Positions 3,581-44,713 of a stretch of 64,000 nucleotides of DNA are shown one piece after another; the stretch's first letter is position 1, and each line of letters starts with the position of its first letter. Under the pieces are notes generated by a model. The model saw only the letters and a program-made list of their open reading frames with translations. It ran no database searches and had not been told where the DNA came from. The translations under genes and the position numbers were made by a program. Source of the stretch: Mycobacterium gastri (GTDB lineage: Bacteria > Actinomycetota > Actinomycetes > Mycobacteriales > Mycobacteriaceae); the NCBI RefSeq assembly GCF_002102175.1, contig NZ_LQOX01000003.1:1-64000 (forward strand). The letters run 5' to 3'.

Positions 3581-3898
3581 ATGAAGGTCCACAAGGGCGA
3601 CACCGTGCTGGTGATTGCCGGGAAAGACAAAGGGGCCAAGGGCAAGGTTTTGCAGGCGTACCCGGACCGTAACCGGGTCCTGGTCGAGGGCGTCAACCGG
3701 ATCAAGAAGCACACCGCGGTCTCCACCAACCAGCGTGGCGCCAGGTCGGGCGGGATCGTCACCCAGGAGGCCCCGATCCACGTCTCCAACGTGATGGTCG
3801 TCGACTCCGACGGCAATCCCACCCGAATCGGCTACCGGGTCGACGAGGAAACCGGCAAACGGGTCCGTATCTCGAAGCGCAACGGCAAGGACATTTGA
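3581..3898 (+). CDS. rplX: 50S ribosomal protein L24
   Basis: L24 (105 aa) is an early assembly initiator that binds the 5' end of 23S rRNA. The KOW motif is visible near the N-terminus ([17 protein letters not shown]), followed by the family's NRVLVEGVN segment. Its ATG follows the rplN stop with no gap, and its TGA overlaps the rplE ATG by one base, so translation of the three genes is likely coupled. Its length matches mycobacterial L24 (Rv0715). Confidence 0.98.
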
Positions 3899-4461
3899 TG
3901 ACTACTGCCGAGAAGGTTCAGCCGCGTCTAAAAGAGCGCTACCGCAACGAGATCCGGGACACGCTGCAAAAGGAGTTCGGCTACCGCAACGTCATGCAGA
4001 TCCCGACCGTGACGAAGGTCGTGGTCAACATGGGCGTCGGCGAGGCTGCCCGGGACGCCAAGCTGATCAACGGCGCGGTCAACGACCTGGCGCTGATCAC
4101 CGGGCAGCGGCCGGAAATTCGCCGGGCACGTAAGTCCATCGCGCAGTTCAAATTGCGTGAGGGCATGCCGGTCGGCGTACGCGTCACGCTGCGCGGCGAC
4201 CGGATGTGGGAGTTCCTCGACCGGCTCACCTCGATCGCGCTGCCGCGTATCCGCGACTTCCGCGGGTTGTCGCCCAAGCAATTCGACGGGGTGGGCAACT
4301 ACACCTTCGGGCTGGCCGAGCAATCGGTGTTCCACGAGGTCGACGTGGACAAGATCGACCGGGTCCGCGGCATGGACATCAACGTCGTCACCTCGGCGAC
4401 AACCGACGAGGAAGGGCGAGTGCTGTTGCGGGCCCTCGGCTTTCCCTTCAAGGAGAACTGA
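3898..4461 (+). CDS. rplE: 50S ribosomal protein L5
   Basis: L5 (187 aa) binds 5S rRNA and forms an intersubunit bridge near the P site. The family signature is seen in the [16 protein letters not shown] and [13 protein letters not shown] segments. A TTG three bases upstream is in frame, but ATG 3898 is preferred because it overlaps the rplX stop codon. It corresponds to Rv0716. The rpsN start lies four bases past its stop. Confidence 0.98.
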
Positions 4462-4465
4462 GCAG

Positions 4466-4651
4466 ATGGCGAAGAAGGCACTGGTCAACAAGGCCGCACG
4501 CAAACCCAAGTTCGCGGTGCGCGGCTACACCCGATGCAGCAAATGTGGCCGCCCGCGCGCGGTGTTCCGCAAGTTCGGGTTATGCAGGATCTGCTTGCGG
4601 GAGATGGCGCATGCGGGTGAGTTACCCGGCGTGCAGAAGAGCAGCTGGTAA
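4466..4651 (+). CDS. rpsN: 30S ribosomal protein S14 type Z
   Basis: A 61-aa zinc-binding S14 of the 30S head. Two CxxC pairs (CSKC and CRIC) make the zinc ribbon, marking the C+ form encoded in the spc operon (Rv0717, rpsN1). Mycobacteria also carry a zinc-free paralogue elsewhere that replaces it under zinc starvation. The AGGAG used for initiation lies inside the last codons of rplE. Confidence 0.97.
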
Positions 4652-4675
4652 CGGCGAGGAAGGGCAGACGCTGTT

Positions 4676-5074
4676 ATGACGATGACGGACCCGATCGCAG
4701 ACTTCTTGACCCGTCTGCGCAACGCCAATTCGGCGTATCACGATGAAGTGGCTTTGCCGCACTCCAAGATCAAGGCCAACATCGCCCAGATCCTCAAGAA
4801 CGAGGGCTACATCAGCGACTTCCGCACCGAGGATGCCCGGGTCGGCAAATCGCTGATCGTGCAGCTCAAATACGGGCCCAGCCGGGAGCGCAGCATCGCC
4901 GGTTTACGCCGGGTGTCCAAGCCGGGGTTGCGGGTCTACGCGAAATCCACCAATCTGCCGCGGGTGCTGGGCGGCCTGGGTGTGGCGATCATTTCGACCT
5001 CCTCGGGCCTGCTCACCGACCGTCAGGCAGCCAGACAGGGCGTGGGCGGCGAAGTGCTCGCCTACGTCTGGTGA
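4676..5074 (+). CDS. rpsH: 30S ribosomal protein S8
   Basis: S8 (132 aa) is a primary 16S rRNA binder in the 30S platform. In E. coli it also represses translation of the spc operon by binding the rplE region; whether mycobacteria do this is not known to me. The N-terminus [15 protein letters not shown] and the C-terminal signature [12 protein letters not shown] are typical. Two in-frame ATG codons (4676 and 4682) are possible starts. It corresponds to Rv0718. Confidence 0.97.
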
Positions 5075-5087
5075 GAGGGATATAGAG

Positions 5088-5627
5088 ATGTCGCGCATTG
5101 GTAAGCAGCCGATTCCGGTACCGCCCGGAGTAGACGTCACGATCGACGGCCAGAACGTCTCCGTCAAGGGGCCGAAAGGCGCCCTGGACATGACGGTCGC
5201 CGAGCCAATCACGGTGTCCCGCAACGATGACGGCGCCATCGTCGTCACGCGTCCCAACGACGAGCGGCGCAACCGCTCCCTGCACGGGCTGTCGCGCACC
5301 CTGGTGTCCAACCTGGTCACCGGCGTGACGCAGGGATACACCACCAAAATGGAGATCTACGGTGTCGGTTACCGCGTCCAGTTGAAGGGCGCCAATCTCG
5401 AGTTCGCGCTCGGTTACAGCCACCCGGTGGTGATTGAAGCACCCGAAGGCATCACGTTCGCGGTCCAGGCGCCGACGAAGTTCACGGTGTCCGGGATCGA
5501 CAAGCAGAAGGTCGGCCAGATTTCGGCGAATATCCGCCGGCTGCGTCGTCCCGACCCTTACAAGGGCAAGGGCGTGCGCTACGAAGGCGAGCAGATCCGC
5601 CGCAAGGTCGGGAAGACAGGTAAGTAG
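5088..5627 (+). CDS. rplF: 50S ribosomal protein L6
   Basis: L6 (179 aa) lies near the GTPase-associated centre of the large subunit. It opens [12 protein letters not shown], contains the two duplicated L6 folds, and ends with the signature [14 protein letters not shown]. The start at 5088 is fixed by GAGAGGGA upstream and by family length. It corresponds to Rv0719 and is followed two bases later by rplR. Confidence 0.98.
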
Positions 5628-5629
5628 TC

Positions 5630-6037
5630 ATGGCGCAATCACAGGCTGAAACCGCTGCGCGAAAGCCGGTGGGGCAGAACGTATCCGCGACCCGGCGCGT
5701 CTCCCGGCTGCGCAGGCACGCCCGGCTGCGCAAGAAGATCGCCGGCACCCCGCAGCGTCCCCGGCTGGTGGTGCACCGGTCCGCGCGGCACATTCACGTG
5801 CAACTGGTGAACGACCTCAACGGCACCACCCTGGCCGCCGCGTCCTCGATCGAAGCCGATGTGCGTGGTGTCGACGGGGACAAGAAAGCCCGCAGCGTGC
5901 GGGTCGGCCAGTTGATCGCCGAACGAGCCAAGGCGGCCGGCATTGACACCGTGGTATTCGACCGCGGCGGCTACAGCTACGGCGGGCGGATTGCGGCGCT
6001 GGCCGATGCCGCACGCGAGAACGGATTGAACTTCTGA
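5630..6037 (+). CDS. rplR: 50S ribosomal protein L18
   Basis: L18 (135 aa) binds 5S rRNA together with L5 and L25. The N-terminal 20 residues form a basic tail, followed by the conserved [13 protein letters not shown] region and a C-terminal [20 protein letters not shown] typical of the family. It corresponds to Rv0720 and sits two bases after rplF, consistent with one operon. Confidence 0.98.
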
Positions 6038-6056
6038 TGAACGGGAGGACCGCATA

Positions 6057-6722
6057 ATGGCGGAACAGTCGGCTGGCGGGCAAGGCGCCCCAGACAGCCG
6101 CGACTCGCGTGACGGCCGGGGCCGGCGCGACAGCGGCCGCGGCGGCCGCGACAGCGACAAGAGCAATTACTTGGAGCGTGTCGTGGCCATCAACCGGGTT
6201 TCCAAGGTGGTCAAGGGTGGTCGGCGATTCAGCTTCACCGCACTGGTCATCGTTGGCGACGGCAACGGGATGGTTGGTGTCGGCTACGGCAAGGCCAAGG
6301 AAGTTCCGGCCGCCATCGCCAAGGGTGTCGAGGAGGCTCGCAAGGGCTTTTTCCGGGTCCCGTTGATCCGCGGCACGATCACCCACCCGGTGCAGGGTGA
6401 GGCGGCCGCCGGCGTGGTGTTGTTGCGCCCGGCCAGCCCCGGTACCGGTGTGATCGCCGGGGGCGCCGCCCGCGCGGTGCTGGAATGCGCTGGCGTGCAC
6501 GACATTCTGGCGAAATCGCTGGGCAGCGACAACGCGATCAACGTGGTGCACGCCACCGTCGCTGCGCTGAAGATGTTGCAGCGTCCCGAGGAGGTGGCCG
6601 CCCGGCGCGGTCTGCCGATCGAGGACGTCGCTCCGGCCGGCATGCTCAAGGCGCGGCGCGAAAGTGACGCGCTTGCCGCCGCCGCGGTGCGAGAGGCCCA
6701 GACGTCAGGGGCACAACCATGA
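6057..6722 (+). CDS. rpsE: 30S ribosomal protein S5
   Basis: S5 (221 aa) shapes the mRNA entry site and affects decoding fidelity. The core S5 signature ([18 protein letters not shown]) begins near residue 51 and is followed by the C-terminal S5 fold. The first 40 residues are a low-complexity Arg/Gly/Asp-rich extension usual in actinobacterial S5. Its stop overlaps the rpmD ATG. It corresponds to Rv0721. Confidence 0.98.
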
Positions 6723-17744: not shown

Positions 17745-18343
17745 TTACAGGGTTGCGGTGACGGCAACGATGTCGCCGAGCTGCGACATGTCGCCGTCGG
17801 GTAGGACGCGACCGTAATCGGTGAACAACTCCCGGCGTGGCCGGGTGCCCACCTGCCAGCCCCGGCCGGTCAGATACTCCACGACGTTGCTGCGCTCGCC
17901 GTCGTAGAACAGTCCCGACAGGTCGATATCGCAACCCAATGTGGCCCACCGCTGGTTGAACTCCTGGGCACGTTGCGCCATCGTCGATCCGGTGTCGGGA
18001 TGGTATTCGGTGGCCAGCCTGCTTCCGGGCGCGCTCAGTTCGGTGATGTTGTCGAACAGGCGGTCCTGGGCGTCGGGCGGCAGGTACATCAGCAAGCCCT
18101 CCGCGCTCCAGGCTGTCGGTTTCGTGTCGTCGAATCCATTGTGGCGCAAGGCATTCGGCCAGTCGTCGCGTAGGTCGACGCTGACCGTTCGCGCACCAGC
18201 GGTGCGGCGAACGGGTCGTCGATGATCGGGTCGGCCGCTGTGGACGCCAGCGCGCGGGCGGCGGCGACCATCGTCGCCGTGGCCCCGACACTGGATGCCA
18301 AATCCCAGCTGTCGCCGGGGGATCGGGATGAGTCGACTGCCAT
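17745..18343 (-). pseudogene. broken PPM-family SAM methyltransferase (internal deletion and frameshift)
   Basis: The first 50 codons from ATG 18343 encode a normal family N-terminus ([20 protein letters not shown] to [10 protein letters not shown]). The reading frame then shifts, and a second frame continues from the equivalent of [17 protein letters not shown] to a normal C-terminus ending at 17745. Against the intact gene at 10159-11088, about 100 residues are missing at the junction near 18190, including the SAM-binding [13 protein letters not shown] block, so the protein cannot be functional. Its start codon lies only 11 bp after the stop of the M29-like gene on the same strand, so it was probably the last gene of that operon. 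Confidence 0.87.
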
Positions 18344-18354
18344 GTGTTTGGGTC

Positions 18355-19419
18355 TCAGACCGCGTCGATGTGTAGGACTTCCCCTACGGTGTGCCCCTGG
18401 CTCTGACCGTCGAGTGCGGCGCGGTCCCACCGGCCGTCGGAGAAGACGAGCGCCTCGTCGAACCAGATGCTGCATCCGTCGAGGATCATGTCGAGGTGTA
18501 GCGGTGCGGTCCAACCGACCTTTGTTCTCGACTGGGTCGGGGTGCCCAGCCCGAGGTGCAAACCCGGATGGCGCTCATTGATGTGCGACAGGAAACCGAC
18601 CCATTCGGTTATGCCTTCGTTTGTGCCGAAGCCGACTTCGCCTACCCTGTCGGCGTTTTCGACTTCGAAGAAGTTGCTCAGAACACCCGACACCACTGGA
18701 TCGCAACATCCGGCCCGTTGCACGACCGAGTCCGTTATTTCCAGGGTGACGGGGTTGCGGGCCAGTCTGGGATCGCCGGGAAAACCGAAGCTCGAGTTTA
18801 TCGCTCCGTCGACCACCACGATTCCGGTCACATGCGGTGTATACGTATTGACCTCGCCGGGCGGCAGGATGGCCGGGAACTGGCCGTTGAAATAGCCGCA
18901 GCTGTTTGTCCAGCCGCCATCCGGCACGGGCCTGATATGGACGTCCGTCCCGGCCGGATTGGTGACGTGAATGTCGTGCGCCCGCTTGGCGGCCGCGATC
19001 ACCGAATTGTTCAAGGAGTCAAGTGATGCGCGGTCGACGGCCAGCGGCAGGGAGAACAACGCGGGGGAGAAGTTGAATAGCCGAAAGATGCGGGTATGTT
19101 TCGGTTTTTCGGTCGTTTGCAGATACTCGAGTACAGCGGCGCGATGGATGCTGGACACCATGCTGACCAGCAGCAGCACCTCGAAGCCGCCGACCCGGCG
19201 CTTGTCGAAGCGGTCAGCGGGCTCAACCCGGACTTCGGCCGAACCCGCCCGGATGCGTTGCCCCAGCGTTTCGAGCAAGCGTTGGTCATCGTCGCCGTGC
19301 AGTTCGTCGGAATAAAGTACGAGCACCCGATCGTCGGGTTGCAACTCGAGATAGCTGGTGCAGAGCGTGTCCATGCCGTCGATTACGGATGAATCAGTGG
19401 ACCGAGTTCCAGCACCCAT
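18355..19419 (-). CDS. M29 aminopeptidase/NicX-fold metalloenzyme, putative peptide-tailoring or leader-processing enzyme
   Basis: A 354-aa cytosolic protein without signal peptide or membrane helix. The C-terminal half shows the metal-site pattern of the M29 (AmpS/PepS) aminopeptidase fold, which is shared with the NicX dihydroxypyridine dioxygenases: a Glu in [23 protein letters not shown] with an upstream Glu and the His, and HLDMILDG with the His-x-Asp pair. Thus it may be a leader-trimming aminopeptidase or a non-haem iron oxygenase; sequence alone does not decide. ATG 19419 has a well-spaced GGGAAG. GTG 19452 would add 11 residues, but its ribosome-binding site is buried in a hairpin. 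The gene follows a 54-aa peptide gene on the same strand. Confidence 0.72.
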
Positions 19420-19456
19420 CAATGACTTCCCATCGGTCGGACGTGCAAACACAGAT

Positions 19457-19491
19457 CTCCCCGCGCCCCTTTTCCGAGCGGGCGCGGGGAG
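19457..19491 (-). promoter_or_regulatory. 12-bp perfect hairpin between peptide gene and M29-like gene
   Basis: CTCCCCGCGCCC at 19457-19468 and GGGCGCGGGGAG at 19480-19491 pair perfectly around an 11-nt loop. On the minus-strand transcript the 3' arm ends in GGGGAG, which is also the only ribosome-binding site for GTG 19452. There is no U tract, so it is not a classic terminator. It may act as an attenuator, protect the 3' end of the peptide mRNA, or block the upstream start. Such an element would give more peptide than enzyme. Confidence 0.6.
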
Positions 19492-19506
19492 CGCGAAATT
19501 CGCGGC

Positions 19507-19671
19507 TCAGACGACGGCGTTGGGGCAGAGCCAGGCGTCGTCGGCGATCCGGGTTGGGTCGGTGCGGGCGATGGCGATTTTCTCGTTGACGTCGCGCAGG
19601 GTCTTCAAGTCAGCCGCGGATAATTCGGTGGAGCTCAGTTCTGCACTGGTGGCGATAATGACGTTGGACAT
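19507..19671 (-). CDS. candidate RiPP precursor peptide, 54 aa
   Basis: A short gene not matching any family I recognise. ATG 19671 has AAGGGG eight bases upstream. The 54-aa product opens MSNVIIATSAELSSTE, continues with an amphipathic, charged segment (ADLKTLRDVNEKIAIARTD) suited to a leader helix, and ends DDAWLCPNAVV with the only Trp and the only Cys four to eight residues from the terminus. Small size, leader-like charge pattern and a compact Trp/Cys/Pro tail beside a peptidase-fold enzyme and a P450 are typical of ribosomally made, modified peptides. The codon-third-position GC looks coding. Function and product are inferred. Confidence 0.6.
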   Translation of the reverse strand: MSNVIIATSAELSSTELSAADLKTLRDVNEKIAIARTDPTRIADDAWLCPNAVV

Positions 19672-19775
19672 TGACGAAACCCCTTCTGTGACCGGCGCAT
19701 GGTAGACGTTAGCACTCGTGCTGGCCGCGTGCGAACTGTAGCTTGCAAGCCATTGAGCATTTACGGTACGAGGCG
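19672..19775. promoter_or_regulatory. divergent control region of peptide gene and P450
   Basis: About 104 bp separate the divergent starts of the peptide gene (minus) and the P450 (plus), so both promoters should lie here. It contains two inverted repeats: AGCAC-TC-GTGCT at 19711-19722 and the perfect palindrome GCTTGCAAGC at 19741-19750, which are possible operator sites. No convincing -10/-35 pair can be assigned. Confidence 0.4.
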
Positions 19776-21083
19776 ATGGTGCGCATTCACGCCGATGCTT
19801 ACGACTCGGTCGACTTTTTCAGCGACGAGTCGCTGTTGCCGAACCCATATCCCTACTTCGACCACCTCAGGGCGAAAAGCCCCGTTTTGCGGCTGCCGCC
19901 CCACCAGGTGATGGCAATTACCGGCTATCCCGAGGGCAATGCCGTTTACCGGGACTCCGGCAATTTCTCCTCGCTCGTCGCCGTTGGCGGACCGTTTCCG
20001 CCGCTGCCGTTCGAACCGCGGGGCGACGACATCGGCGAGCAAATCGAACGGCACCGCCATCGGATGCCGATGAGCAACTACCTGACCACGATGGACCCGC
20101 CCCAACACTCCCGGGCGCGGGCGCTGCTGGGTCGTCTGCTCACCCCCGAGCGCCGCGCATGCGCTACGGAGTCGATGCGGCGCCTGGCCGGTGATCTCAT
20201 CGACCAATTCATCGCCACCGGCCACTGCGAGTTCGTGTCCGAATATGCAAAGCCCTTCTCGTACAGGGTGATTGCAGACCTGCTCGGTGTGCCCGGCCAC
20301 GACCGCCGGCTATTCGACGTGCCGCGGCCGCCGGTGCCGGTCGGTGCGCTGGACCATGCGCCGCTACCGGAGGATCCGCTGCGCTGGCTGGACGACATAT
20401 TCGTCCGCTATCTGGTGGAGCGGCGACGCGAACCCCGCGCGGATGTGCTGACGCAACTGGCCACCGCGCGCTATCCCGACGGGACGACACCCGAGGTCGC
20501 CGACCTCGCCAGGAGCGCCACCCTGCTCTTCACCGCCGGACGGGGGGCCACCGCGTTCATGCTGAGCTGGTCGGTTCGGCTGCTAGCCGAGCGTCCCGAT
20601 CTGGCGGAGCAACTGCGTGCCAACCGCAGCCGGATTCCGCAGTTCGTCGAGGAGGTCCTGCGCATGGAAAGCCCGGTAAAGAGCGACTTCCGGCTGGCCC
20701 GCAAGACCACCCGGGTGGGTGATGTCGTGATCCCGGCCGGCACCACCGTGATGCTCTGTCCCGGGGCAAGCAACCGTGATCCCCGAAAGTTCGTCAGGCC
20801 CAATGAGTTTCGCCTGGACCGAAGCAACGCCCGCGACCATATGGCGTTCGGTCGCGGCGCGCATTCGTGTCCCGGAGCGGCGCTGGCCCGCGTCGAGGCC
20901 CGCATTTCGATCGAATGCATCCTGGACCGGTTAACCGCAATCCGGCTCAGCACCGCCGAGCATGGTGCGCCTGATAACCGGCGATTCAGCTATGAGCCGG
21001 CGTACACCCTGCGCGCGCTGACCGGCTTGCACCTCGAGTTCGCGCCGGCTTTGCCTCAGCCACTGAATTCGGCCGAGATGTAG
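19776..21083 (+). CDS. cytochrome P450, putative peptide-modifying oxidase
   Basis: A 435-aa class I bacterial P450. The haem loop [15 protein letters not shown] carries the axial Cys, the ExxR of helix K is in EEVLRMESP, and the I-helix motif is [14 protein letters not shown], where AT replaces the usual TT/ET pair. It requires ferredoxin and reductase, which are not encoded nearby. P450s adjacent to small precursor peptides can cross-link aromatic side chains; here that role is inferred from the adjacent 54-aa peptide. ATG 19776 is the likely start; TTG 19743 or GTG 19779 are alternatives, all with weak ribosome-binding sites. Its 3' end overlaps the convergent methyltransferase by 28 bp. 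Confidence 0.87.
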
Positions 21084-22003
21084 ACCACCTCGCCGAAGGG
21101 AGCGTCGTCGCCGTCGACGGGTGGCAGTCCGTGTCGGGCGAACAGGTCGGTGTTGCTCACCCCGGCGATCCGCCAACCATGGGCAGCCAGATATGTGCCC
21201 GCGTCGGTGCGGTCGTCGAAATACAGCAGAGCCGCCATGTCGAGATCGAAGCCGTGGCGATTCCACCGCTCGTTCTGGCGCCGCATGCGCCGTCGCAGCT
21301 CTTCTCGGTTGAGATCGTTGACGTCGAGCAGACCCTCGGTGGCGAACCGGCTGCCCGGTGCGCTGTGGGCGGTGACCTGGTCCAGCAGCCGGTCCTGGGC
21401 CTGCGCCGGCAGGTAACCCAGCAGCCCTTCTGCGGACCAGGCGGTTGGCTGGGCCGGGTCGAAGCCGGCTTCGCGCAATGCCGCCGGCCAGTCGTCACGC
21501 AAGTCGACCGCTACCGGGCGCCGATCGGCCGTCGGCTGCGCACCCAGGCCGGCCAGCGTCGCGGTCTTGAACTCGATCACCCGCGGCTGGTCGACTTCGA
21601 ACACGGTGGTACCGGCCGGCCAGGGCAACCGGTAAGCGCGGGAATCCAGGCCGGACGCCAGGATGACGGCTTGGCGGATACCGGCCCGGGTTGCGTCGGT
21701 GAAGAAGTCGTCGAAGAACCGGGTGCGCACGGTCATAGCGTTGGCGAAGTGCCGGATGCCGTTGGCCGTGTCGTCATCGACGTCGGCGGTACTTAGCTCG
21801 CCACTGGCGACGCGGCTGAAGAAGTCGACGCCGACCGCTTTGACCAGCGGCTCGGCGAAGTGGTCGCTGGCAATGGCTCCGGCGCCGTTGGCGTCCCGGC
21901 AGGCCGCCGCGCGTGCGGCCGCCACCATGGTGGCCGTCAAACCCACGCTGGAAGCCAAATCCCAGGTGTCGCCCTCGAAGCGCGCGCTACCCAATTGCGT
22001 CAT
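21056..22003 (-). CDS. SAM-dependent methyltransferase, PPM/leucine carboxyl methyltransferase-like (Rv0731c-like)
   Basis: A 315-aa intact member of the same family as 10159-11088 and the broken copy at 17745-18343. It has [17 protein letters not shown], the SAM-binding [28 protein letters not shown], and [15 protein letters not shown] 22003 is chosen because it places the conserved block about 10 residues in; the frame is open a further 36 codons upstream without support. It occupies the Rv0731c position before secY. The substrate is unknown; a carboxyl group, possibly the C-terminus of the nearby peptide, is a speculative option. Confidence 0.88.
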
Positions 22004-22227
22004 CCGTTTGCCCTCCGCCGGCCACTTATTGATACTTAGCAAATATAACGAACTAGCAAGACTGTACGCTCGCCCGGCGCCGCCACGGCCACCCAGGCAA
22101 GTCCCGCCCACATCAGCTGTTAATCTCGTAACGGTTTGACGCGCTGTAGATAATGCGGCCGTACGTCCTGGCCTGCGAGTGTTGGGCGCGTAATGCAGGA
22201 TGACCCCCCGCTGCGCAGGAGGAAGTA

Positions 22228-30858: not shown

Positions 30859-31371
30859 GTGGCTGCATCACGACCGGACAGGCCCGACCCGATCGCCGTG
30901 GCCCGGGCCAACTGGGAGAAAGCCGGGTGGAGTGACGTGGCGCCGGGCATGGTCGCGGTGACATCGGTGATGCGTGCCCACCAGATCCTGCTGGCCCGAG
31001 TCGAGACCGCGCTGCGTCCCTACGATCTGAGTTTCTCCCGTTTCGAGCTGCTGCGGTTATTGGCGTTCAGCCGTACCGGTGCGTTGCCGATCACCAAGGC
31101 CTCCGACCGCCTTCAGGTTCATGTCACCAGCGTCACGCACGCGATCCGCCGGCTGGAAGCCGACGGGCTGGTGCAACGGGTGCCGCACCCTACCGACGGG
31201 CGGACCACGTTGGTGCGGATCACCGAGTTGGGGCGGGCCACCGTCGAGGACGCCACCCTGACCCTCAACGAGCAGGTGTTCGCCGATATCGGCATGGGCG
31301 CCGGCGAGTCGGAGGCGCTGGTGTCCGCCATCGAAACGTTGCGGCGCAACGCCGGAGACTTCACCGTCTGA
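30859..31371 (+). CDS. MarR family transcriptional regulator (Rv0737-like)
   Basis: A 170-aa winged-helix repressor-like protein. The MarR core runs from SFSRFELLRLLAFSRTGAL through the recognition helix (QVHVTSVTHAIRRLEADGL) to the wing (HPTDGRTTLVRITELG). The likely ligand is a small hydrophobic or aromatic compound, as in the family. GTG 30859 is 47 bp after the aminotransferase gene. It is conserved as Rv0737 in M. tuberculosis without the four-gene cluster, so a role in controlling the cluster is possible but not shown. A phased 10-bp repeat array spans its stop codon. Confidence 0.88.
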   Translation: MAASRPDRPDPIAVARANWEKAGWSDVAPGMVAVTSVMRAHQILLARVETALRPYDLSFSRFELLRLLAFSRTGALPITKASDRLQVHVTSVTHAIRRLEADGLVQRVPHPTDGRTTLVRITELGRATVEDATLTLNEQVFADIGMGAGESEALVSAIETLRRNAGDFTV

Positions 31372-31420
31372 CACCGTCTCACACCGTCTGACACCGAGAG
31401 ACACCGAGAGTCACCGAGAG
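31361..31420 (+). repeat. six 10-bp tandem repeats spanning the MarR stop codon
   Basis: Six consecutive 10-mers share WCACCG: three with TCTG or TCTC endings (31361-31390) and three with AGAG endings (31391-31420). The period equals one helical turn. The array runs from the last MarR codons into the leader of the downstream disrupted gene, so it could be a cooperative binding site or simple slippage. Confidence 0.8.
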
Positions 31421-31445
31421 AAAGGCAGGGCAGTGGACCCATTAG

Positions 31446-34314: not shown

Positions 34315-34875
34315 ATGTCGTTTGTGATCGCGGCGCCGCAGGCCATCACGGCAGCGGCCACGGATGTGGCTGGTATCGGTTCGGCGATTAGCGCGGCCAA
34401 CGCCACGGCGGCGGCCAACACCGAGGTGGTGCTGGTCGCGGGCGCCGATGAGGTGTCGGCGGCCATCGCAGCGCTGTTTGAGGCGCACGGCCAGGCTTAT
34501 CAGGCGCTCAGTGCGCAGGCGGCGGCGTTTCATGCCCAGTTTGTGCAGGCGCTGCCCGCGGGTGCGGGCTCGTATGCGGCCGCCGAGGCCGCCAGCGCCG
34601 CGTCAATAACCAGTCCGCTGCTCAGCGCGATCAACGCGCCCTTCTTGGCGCTGACCGGGCGCCCGCTGTTCGGCAATGGCGCCGCGGGCGGGTCCGGCGC
34701 GCCCGGCAAGGCGGGTGGTGCCGGCGGGGCCGCCGGGCTGTTCGGCAACGGCGGCGCCGCCGTGCTGATCGGCAACGGTGGTAACAGCGGCAAGGGCGGG
34801 CTTGGCGCGCCGCCGGGTGCGCCAGGCGCTGCCGGCGCTGGGGGGCTGCTGCTCGGCCTGGACGGGTTGACCTAG
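34315..34875 (+). CDS. short PE_PGRS protein (PE_PGRS8-like)
   Basis: A 186-aa protein. The PE domain (residues 1 to about 95, [17 protein letters not shown], with [15 protein letters not shown]) is followed by the linker ending in [22 protein letters not shown] very short PGRS region of Gly-Gly-Ala/Asn repeats (about 60 residues) follows. PE proteins are exported by type VII systems, and PGRS tails usually sit in the outer cell envelope. Length and position match Rv0742. No PPE partner is adjacent. Confidence 0.88.
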
Positions 34876-34896
34876 GGTTGACCTAGGTTGACCTAG
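34865..34896 (+). repeat. 11-bp tandem repeat at the PE_PGRS stop
   Basis: GGTTGACCTAG occurs three times in a row (the third loses one G); the stop codon TAG of the PE_PGRS gene is in the first copy. Each unit places a TAG in the register, so loss of one copy would not extend the frame much. Slippage is the likely origin. Confidence 0.7.
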
Positions 34897-41299: not shown

Positions 41300-42163
41300 A
41301 TGAATTTCTCGGTATTGCCGCCGGAGGTCAATTCGGCGCGATTGTTTTCCGGTGCGGGTTCGGCTCCCATGGCGGCGGCCGCCGCGGCCTGGAATGGCTT
41401 GGCGGACGAGTTGGCTGATGCGGCGTCGTCATTTTCGTCGGTGACGTCGGGGTTGCTGGGTCAGGCGTGGCAGGGCCCCGCCTCGGCGGCGATGGCGGCC
41501 GCGGCGGCTCCCTATACCGAGTTGCTGAGCGCGGCGGCGGGTCGGGCGACGGGAGCGGCCGTGCAGTCGCAGGCGGTGGCCGACGCGTTCGAGGCTGCGC
41601 GGGCGGCGACGATCCATCCGCTGGCCGTAGCGGCCAACCGGGACGGGTTGGTGCAATTGATTTTGTCGAATTTCTTCGGGCAGAACGCTCCGTCGATCGC
41701 GGCCGTCGAGGCCGAGTACGAACAGATGTGGGCTCAAGATGTGGCCGCGATGGCGGGCTATCATGCCGGGGCCTCGGCGGCAGCAGCACAGCTGGAACCG
41801 TGGCTGCAAGCGCTGCACGACCTGGCAAGCCGGCTCGCGGCGACGCTGGGCCTCAGCCCGGTCACCAATCCCGTGGCCAGCGACCCCGATTTGATGAGTC
41901 AAACCACCAATTTCGGCTTGTTCACCAGCACCGCTCTTGCTGACCCTGACGACAATAATTTCGTCGGGCTGGTTATTTCAAGTCCGCTCTTCACCGATAC
42001 GTTGACCTCCGGGTTTGAGTCCACCTTGGGGTTGGGTGCGCCCGGGCAGACGATAAACACATTCCAAAGTCCGGTCTTGCCGTTCTTGAACAGTTCGATC
42101 GCCCTTCCCGTCACGGATCCTCTGGCGCCTTTGTTTACCGCGCTTCTTCCGCTGGGTTTCTGA
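41300..42163 (+). CDS. PPE family protein
   Basis: A 287-aa PPE protein. The N-terminal domain starts [15 protein letters not shown] and holds WQGPAS near residue 57 and [16 protein letters not shown] near 140. The C-terminal 100 residues are unique, hydrophobic and without MPTR, SVP or PGRS repeats. AAAGGGGG lies nine bases before ATG 41300. The 120 bp upstream are AT-rich, with TATAAA near 41225, and probably hold its promoter. It faces the ABC permease gene tail to tail, with a 10-bp repeat array between. Confidence 0.92.
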
Positions 42164-42200
42164 CTATTCGAGACTATTCGAGATTGTTCGAGACTATTCG
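42161..42200 (+). repeat. four 10-bp repeats between convergent PPE and permease genes
   Basis: The unit AGACTATTCG appears four times (42161-42200; the first and third copies vary). The array starts at the PPE stop codon and runs into the last codons of the convergent permease gene, whose TAG lies inside the fourth copy. Confidence 0.75.
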
Positions 42201-44713
42201 AGCCCGACGGCGTCGATGATGTTGAGTCGCGAGGCGCGCGCTGCGGGCGGCAACGAGCCGAGCAGGCTGACCGCCACCGCGCCGACCGTCAACACCAGCG
42301 CCATGGGGCCCGGCCGGAAAGCGACCGCGAAATTCATGACGTCTGCACTGACGAGGCTGTACAGCCACTGGTCGGTCAGTCCGAACGCGAGCCCGGCGAC
42401 ACCACCGACAACACCGATGCCCGCAGCCTCGGCCAACACCATCTGCACCGTGAACCGCCGGCTACAGCCCATCGCCCGCAGCACCCCGATCTCCCGGCGC
42501 CGTTCCAGCACCGACAGCGTCAAAGTGTTGAGCAGCGCCACCGCGGCCACGAAGACCACGATGATCCAGACGGCATCGGCGATGAACATGCTCTGATGCA
42601 GCGGGGCTTCGGCGCCGGCCAGTGCAGTGCGACCGTCGTACACGTAGTTGGGTGGCGGCACCACGTGTCGCACGTTGTCCGACAAGCGATGTCGATCAAC
42701 GCCCGGGGCCGCGGTGATCTGCAGTGTGGTCGCCGCCGGCCGGCCGAACCAGGACCGCAGCTGCTCGAGGCTCATCCCCACCGTGCCGATGACGGTGGAG
42801 AAGTACGGCACCAGCGCCAACACCGTCGGCCGTTGGCGTCCGTGCGGTGTGTCCAAGGCCAGCCGGTCGCCTACCCGCATCCGCAGCGCCGCCCCCAGAT
42901 TCCGGGTGAGCACCACGCCCAGCCCGGCCAGCACCTCGTCGCGCACCCGGTCATCCAGCGCGCGGTAGAGGGAATCGGCGGTTCCGGGGGAAAACCCGTC
43001 GAGCAGCACCCGCGTTCCGCCCACCACGGCGAACGCAGCCCCTCCCTCGGTGACGCGGGCGACGCCGGGTACCGCGGCCACCTGGTCGGAAAGGCCTTGC
43101 GGCAGTGGGTCGGTGGGGTATCTGTCCGGCGGATCTGCGCTCACCCACACGTCGACGCCGGCCGCCGGAGCGAAGATTTCCCGCGCGGACGAGATCATGT
43201 CGGAGTTGGTGCCGGTGATCACCACCGTGGCGACAACCGCGATCGACACGGTTATGACGGTTGCCCAGACGCGCCGCGGCGCTCGTTGGATGGTCGCTGC
43301 CGCGAGTGCGCCCATCCGTCCGAACTTTCGCGCCGTCGCGGCTACGGCCCCGACGACGGGCGCCGTGAGCGCAAACCCCAGCGCGATCTCGGCGCCGAAC
43401 AGGGCAAGCAGCGCGGCCAAGGCGTACCTGACGCGGTGCTCGACGACGAGCAGGGTGGACGCCCCGAACATCGCGAGGGCTGCAGCCCCGGTTGCGACCC
43501 GCAGCCAGCGCGGCACGACATCTGCCGACGAGACCCCGACCGGCGCCAGCGCCTCGATCGGCGAGACCCGGTACACCTGCCGGGCAGCCATCGCCGACGC
43601 GGCCGCGCTGGTGAGCATCGTCGTGGCCAGGGCAACCGGTATCGCGTAGCCGGGCAGCCAGTACTGGACGCGAGCTTCCAGCCCCTGGGTCATTGCCGGC
43701 GGAAGCCGGCTAATCGCGATGCGGCCCAGGCCTATTCCGGCGCACGACCCGAGAGCACCGCCGATCAGCCCGACAAGCGCGGCCTCGGCGAGCAGGTCGC
43801 CGACGATGGTGACGCGCCGGCCGCCGATCGCACGCAGCAACGAGATGACCGGCCGGCGCTGGGTGATCGTCATGGTCGTCGTGGTGTAGATCAGGAATGC
43901 GCCGACCACCAAGGCAATCCCCGCGCCCAGCAGGGCCATGTAGTTCATCAGCTTCACACCGTCCCCGGCCCGCGTCGCCCGCATGCTCGGGTTGGCGACA
44001 ATGGCGCGGTCGTTCACGGCGGCGACCACACCGGCGCGCACCGCGGCCAGATCGGCACCCGGTTGGGTCGTGACCAGTATCGAGTCCAGCCGGCCTTGTC
44101 GCCCGGTAACGCTCTGCGCCAGGGCAAGTGGCGCCAGGACATAATGGCCGCCGTTGAGCTCGGCGAGTCGCCGCCCCCCGAGCACCTCGACGACGGTGAC
44201 CGAGCCCGAGCCCAGCCGGAACGTCTGGCCTTTCGCGTAGCCGATACCGGGCCCTACCTGAACTCCGTCGGGAGTCGTCGACGCCGCGTCCAACGGTTGT
44301 GCCCCAATACTTTTGAAGGCCCCTTTCAGTGCGCCGCTCAGCTCGGCGCTGCGTGCGTCGGCGCCGAAAAGCAGTACCGGCCCCGCAGCCGTGGACGCCG
44401 ACATCCGGATCATCGGCGCCGCAGTGCCGACACCGGGGACCGCCGCGACGTCGGCGGCGATCGTGTCGGGAAAACCGGCGTCAGTAATGCCCGACACCTC
44501 GAGCGCGGCAACGCCGGCGACCCCGTCGGCCAACCGGTCGACCGATCCGGTGATCGAACCGAAGATGCCGAATACCGCGACCAGATACATTGCCGCCACT
44601 GCCATGACGGCGATCGAGGCGCTGGTGCGCCGGCGATGCACGGCAAGCTCGCGCAGGCTGAACAGTCGTAGCCGGCTCGCCGCAGCCGGTAGTGCCGAGC
44701 CCGGTTTCACCAT
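42194..44713 (-). CDS. ABC transporter permease, FtsX/MacB-like with duplicated domain (Rv0987-like)
   Basis: An 839-aa membrane protein made of two FtsX-type units. An N-terminal helix ([21 protein letters not shown]) precedes an external domain, three helices around residues 265-380, more helices near 405-455, then a second set with external domain and final helices ([21 protein letters not shown] and [15 protein letters not shown]). Both units keep the short MSxVVGxF-like coupling regions. It likely exports or extracts a lipid or lipopeptide with the ATPase encoded just upstream (7-bp overlap). Length and partner resemble Rv0986-Rv0987. Confidence 0.83.

Follow-up and report, generated by a model that had tools for sequence, protein, structure and literature searches.

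Crocagin of Chondromyces crocatus (CgnA-CgnB-CgnC-CgnE) offers the nearest RiPP precedent for the locus described here. CgnB and CgnE bind the crocagin RiPP precursor but are not active as aminopeptidases, and a dinuclear zinc site is present in CgnB (PMC10070186). The crocagin M29-fold proteins present the precursor to the oxidase, and CgnB, probably via its dinuclear metal, aids ring closure (PMC10070186). Two further described groups are minimal in their composition: the biarylitides (BytA/BytO type) are P450-modified RiPPs with a five-residue precursor and an aromatic pair with Tyr, and the atropopeptides (tryptorubin type) follow the logic of a small precursor with a conserved core Trp and a P450. 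We analysed a window (the whole stretch of DNA, 64,000 nucleotides from Mycobacterium gastri) in which a cassette of three genes has parts in common with all of these. With crocagin it shares an M29-fold partner of CgnB/CgnE-type fold, a short precursor, a conserved core Trp and an operon oxidase; with the atropopeptides it shares the combination of small precursor and P450 as well as the core Trp, and with the biarylitides the minimal design. In our assessment the cassette is probably a minimal RiPP-type biosynthetic unit which, judging from its sequence, most likely yields a small modified peptide of an undescribed kind. The features of the locus are as follows.

17745..18343, minus strand: broken TIGR00027/LCM-family methyltransferase, flanking the cassette and not part of the system
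18355..19419, minus strand: M29-like (CgnB-fold) metalloprotein, 354 aa; alternative in-frame start GTG at 19452
19507..19671, minus strand: gene of 165 nt for a 54-aa precursor-like peptide, with homologues in five other species beside the same partners
19525..19542, minus strand: invariant core codons DDAWLC (residues 44-49), six of six columns invariant
19555..19614, minus strand: conserved leader stretch from A20 to P39, a probable recognition helix
19672..19775: divergent control region, 104 bp
19680..19687, minus strand: Shine-Dalgarno AGAAGGGG of the peptide gene, 8 nt before the ATG
19776..21083, plus strand: P450 of the CYP150A lineage; alternative in-frame start TTG at 19743
20541..20552, plus strand: I-helix codons RGAT of the P450, where CYP150A relatives have QETT, so that the acid-alcohol pair is lost
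21056..22111, minus strand: intact TIGR00027/LCM-family methyltransferase, flanking the cassette and not part of the system

The cassette is not a crocagin member, because sequence homology, a second M29-fold copy, a CgnC-type enzyme and a Tyr-Trp core were all looked for and none of them was found. No sequence homology to CgnB/CgnE is detectable; each cassette has one M29-fold copy, whereas crocagin has a second, metal-site-broken copy in the CgnE role; and the crocagin core ends in a C-terminal Ile-Tyr-Trp, whereas the core here is DDAWLC followed by a tail, with no Tyr. The two leaders are also unrelated. An earlier sequence-only reading of this DNA, whose positions for the peptide ORF, the M29-like gene, the divergent P450 and both flanking methyltransferases agree with ours, knew of no described class with this combination of genes. 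This calls for a qualification, since M29-fold peptide-binders, an oxidase and a core Trp already occur together in crocagin, the oxidase there being a CgnC-type 2-oxoglutarate dioxygenase and in the cassette a P450. Nor is the cassette an atropopeptide system, because its leader has no KSLK-type motif (alignment of the six homologues against PMC11450843); unlike atropopeptides, it has an M29-like partner, and its P450 is of the CYP150A lineage. From the biarylitides it differs in the length of the precursor (53-56 aa), in having Trp and Cys in the core, and in its leader.

The peptide ORF (MSNVIIATSAELSSTELSAADLKTLRDVNEKIAIARTDPTRIADDAWLCPNAVV) matches no Pfam, NCBIfam or PHROGs family. The Shine-Dalgarno is kept at the same place in the homologues, as AGAAAGGG or similar. 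Across the alignment of the six cassette homologues, invariant columns are distributed very unevenly, with one of 16 in residues 1-16, nine of 23 in residues 17-39 (A20, L22, L25, R26, K31, A33, A35, R36 and P39), none of four in residues 40-43 and none of eight in the tail. DDAWLC is flanked by the variable linker and by the variable tail of 4-8 residues. Conservation of WLCPN behind a variable leader had been anticipated: WLC lies within the invariant hexapeptide but PN is found only in this species, and residues 1-16 are mostly variable but the stretch 20-39 is conserved, so the leader is not freely variable. As read from the alignment, this layout is that of a precursor with a putative recognition stretch, a linker and a core. 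The dN/dS of the peptide is 0.11-0.53 and below 1 in all 15 pairs. A spurious ORF is ruled out by the homologues, the six-sequence alignment and the dN/dS values. The locus carries what is characteristic of a RiPP system, that is, a short encoded precursor with a recognition region, a conserved core and protein-level selection, together with co-located modifying enzymes which track the precursor across genomes.

The search suggested by the earlier reading, for the peptide next to M29-like and P450 genes in other mycobacteria, was carried out, and the peptide was found conserved beside both genes in five other Mycobacterium species. Homologues with E values of 2e-14 to 2e-11 were obtained in four of 197 other genus genomes, each adjoining an M29-like gene; the other peptide matches were weak (E 0.03-0.1) and fall in frames that are unrelated and for the most part long. 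M. szulgai and M. angelicum were located by species name, M. angelicum being an addition to these four. All three genes occur together in the window, G023, G064, G015, M. szulgai and M. angelicum, and the gene order (P450, divergent gap, peptide, M29-like gene) is constant wherever the peptide occurs. Peptide and M29-like gene always co-occur in whole cassettes, and their coupling is tight: M. szulgai and M. angelicum have the M29-like start directly after the peptide stop. The precursor-type peptide, which looks translated, and its two partner enzymes are maintained as one unit, as their presence across the cassette genomes indicates, and all three genes are under purifying selection. In G015 the cassette (L021 8414-12904) stands with its promoter element at another chromosomal site, flanked by whiB4 and an Rv3680-like ATPase gene, with neither a methyltransferase nor secY in the vicinity. 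A chance neighbourhood at the methyltransferase locus is ruled out, because the G015 unit stands at whiB4 without methyltransferases.

The distribution of the cassette is narrow. The M29-like protein is whole or nearly so in five of 198 genus genomes (the window's own counted), the peptide is present in the same five, and a sixth genome, G091, has an M29-like remnant. In the larger set of 396 genus genomes, the M29-like gene was found in seven, G733 having a remnant only; the cassette occurs in six of the 396, with remnants in others and at least two losses. In two close sister genomes, G091 and G733, most of the cassette has disappeared, independently and by different routes: G091 (L023 9588-10478) retains the final 60% of the P450 and the terminal M29-like codons, and G733 (L117 9539-9936) only the 3' part of the M29-like gene, frameshifted. 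The last 70 M29-like codons of G064 (L020 8751-10817) are split off by a transposase gene that looks IS1634-like, and in G023 (L019 9309-9946) an acetyltransferase-like frame, apparently incomplete, separates the M29-like gene from that of the peptide. With the peptide profile, nothing convincing was found in 200 genomes of the order or among plasmids, and the DDAWLC-encoding pattern has one further occurrence in 197 other genomes of the phylum (L121, G294:C85:3797-3814). No P450 or related peptide adjoins other M29-like genes in the stretches examined, and the distant M29-like neighbourhoods (Burkholderia, Haladaptatus, G340, G379 and G294) have no similar unit.

The probable start of the M29-like gene is ATG 19419 and not GTG 19452, because the Met encoded by this ATG is invariant in the six-sequence alignment. 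Its product retains the dinuclear metal ligands of Peptidase M29 (E, E, E, H, H, D) as E189, E261, E282, H288, H308 and D310 (354-aa numbering), read from an alignment with distant relatives in which E282 takes the position of the Glu in the DEK motif. All six are invariant in the six cassette homologues and match, in order, those reported for CgnB (PMC10070186). Pfam PF02073 is reached weakly by five of the six alignment members (best E 0.0075, below the gathering score); the window member has no match up to an E of 10, and G000 has none; the M29 affiliation is settled by profile and fold comparisons and not by Pfam. A structure model built from 19 sequences is usable (pLDDT 77.5, pTM 0.80), and its best match by structure comparison is NicX (2,5-dihydroxypyridine 5,6-dioxygenase; Z 24.6), with M29 aminopeptidases at Z 19-21, CgnB at VIA Z 17.9 and CgnE at 17.6 (rows 8-9), and the next unrelated row at 8.2. 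With a profile of the 19 sequences, NicX and the aminopeptidases were recovered, whereas CgnB/CgnE did not appear up to an E of 1. Because the fold scores favour NicX and the aminopeptidases and the profile misses CgnB/CgnE, the analogy with CgnB is a functional one drawn at the level of the fold.

The description of this protein as an M29/NicX-fold enzyme is accurate for the dinuclear M29-type site, which is kept, but not for the iron site of NicX. In NicX a His takes the place of the bridging Glu, which results in a mononuclear iron site. Although NicX shares the HLD motif besides being the best fold match, it has GISHIGWG where the M29-like protein has VGEVGFG, and in the profile alignment it has no Glu at the place of E261; the site here is therefore of the dinuclear type. 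A NicX-type dioxygenase is disfavoured by these ligands, the bridging Glu being kept in the window family, and of the oxidation that had been suggested for the enzyme, a NicX-like, ring-cleaving version is accordingly unlikely.

Leader trimming was the other role suggested for this protein, which would then be a true metallo-aminopeptidase releasing or trimming the P450-modified RiPP core. We regard this as unlikely. It agrees with the conservation of all dinuclear M29 metal ligands and with the strong structural matches to PepS, AmpT and AmpS, with which fold and ligands are shared. Against it, the cassette protein is shorter than these M29 aminopeptidases, is narrowly distributed and tied to the cassette, reaches the Pfam M29 family weakly, and has Thr or Ser in six of six homologues in place of the Tyr that lies seven residues after the ligand His (M29 HLALGxSY). 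That Tyr has a catalytic role in M29 aminopeptidases. Trimming is possible but disfavoured because CgnB, the nearest RiPP relative, is without aminopeptidase activity (PMC10070186).

The P450 probably starts at ATG 19776, making the divergent gap 104 bp. Its kinship with CYP150A P450s is clear from sequence, the best solved match being CYP150A6 (PDB 6dcd; 553 bits over 418 residues). Such CYP150A-lineage P450s are common (159 of 198 genomes), and those of the cassettes form one clade with support of 100/100, an offshoot of CYP150A. The I-helix reads FTA[AG]RG[AV]TA in all six cassette P450s, with no ETT acid-alcohol pair, whereas AGQETT is present in 24 of the 25 nearest non-cassette relatives and AGQHTT in one; CYP150A6 of M. 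marinum likewise keeps GQETT. The haem loop with its Cys ligand is intact in all cassette P450s and non-cassette relatives compared. The change in the P450 thus accompanies the cassette, because the cassette P450s are one clade with RG[AV]T in place of QETT and an intact Cys loop. The P450 remnant of G091 also has RGAT. The closest non-cassette P450 (63% identity; L078 of G168, 3858-6408) has GQHTT and is followed by a second P450 in the same direction. A dead P450 is not supported, the EXXR and Cys loops being intact and dN/dS 0.20-0.34. A P450 that lacks the acid-alcohol pair would be expected to carry out coupling or radical chemistry in preference to hydroxylation.

The reading of the cassette as a RiPP-type unit acting on DDAWLC follows from the crocagin precedent, in which the same kinds of part are found, here with a P450 as the oxidase. 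In the scheme we infer, residues ~17-39 of the peptide would form a recognition helix and residues 40-43 a linker, modification would fall on DDAWLC as the core, and the 4-8 residues that end the peptide would be a disposable tail. The M29-like protein would bind the precursor via its CgnB-like fold, acting as a partner or catalyst and not as a peptidase, and its dinuclear metal site may catalyse cyclisation or elimination after oxidation. The P450 would most likely carry out a Trp-centred one-electron oxidation or coupling and not an ordinary hydroxylation, because the proton-delivery acid-alcohol pair is lost; as to the exact chemistry, a Trp/Cys cross-link or an indoline is our guess. No exporter, dedicated protease or ferredoxin gene is present within the cassette, and product release would be left to host proteases.

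Quite unlikely, in our view, is that the peptide is no substrate but serves either the M29-like enzyme or the P450 as a small subunit, structural or regulatory, in a pathway for small molecules. A subunit could also be coupled this tightly to the M29-like gene and conserved this strongly, and beta-ionone, a small terpenoid, is oxidised by the CYP150A relative CYP150A5 in a whole-cell system (PMC6237146). However, an invariant Trp/Cys hexapeptide set between a variable linker and a variable tail in 54 aa is the pattern of a leader-core precursor and not of an interface. Highly improbable is the conversion of DDAWLC into one fixed small molecule, a peptide-derived cofactor or signal as in the biogenesis of PQQ or of mycofactocin (a product of this kind which mycobacteria already make): it would explain why the core does not vary between species although the tail does. 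Against it stand the presence of the cassette in six of 396 genus genomes, its loss on at least two occasions and the lack of linked client enzymes.

Returning to the RiPP-type unit, we tentatively put forward a wider proposal, to which we give a little less than even credence: that the cassette represents a novel class of RiPPs, with radical coupling at an invariant Trp/Cys core performed by a P450 without the acid-alcohol pair under the guidance of a dinuclear-metal M29-fold partner, and that M29-fold peptide-binders are general RiPP partners working with different oxidases. If the reading as a RiPP-type unit is right, the M. szulgai/M. angelicum group uses three genes to make a modified peptide that has not been described, and M29-fold peptide-binding proteins extend beyond crocagin to a P450 system. 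The unit is not flagged by family-based annotation, the peptide matching no family and the M29-like protein none above cut-off. It would also be a clean natural experiment on how a P450 functions once the acid-alcohol pair is gone, since these genomes also have paralogues that retain it, and it is small enough for reconstitution in a laboratory strain of E. coli.

Between the P450 and the peptide gene, five of the six species, G015 included, share a 41-bp element in which 37-41 of 41 positions are identical. It is likely an operator: in G064 it includes the palindrome TTGCACATGTGCAA, from which the versions in the other species differ by one base. The element lies in the gap at 11874-11995 of L020 and in the same gap of L019, L021, L022 and L002. 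The window gap is without it (16 of 41), the best match elsewhere in the window being 22. From the missing element and the window P450, which is the longest branch of the tree, the window copy is the most divergent of the six, still under purifying selection. The cassette product is dispensable and the window copy may be silent or differently regulated, because the element is lost in the window and most of the cassette is lost in G091 and G733.

Upstream of the cassette, the flanking methyltransferase is broken by an internal deletion and a frame change. The window has no Rfam family or tRNA; it does have short tandem repeats of 10-11 bp at 42162-42202, 31362-31421 and 34864-34896, with the units GACTATTCGA, CACCGTCTGA and GGTTGACCTA.
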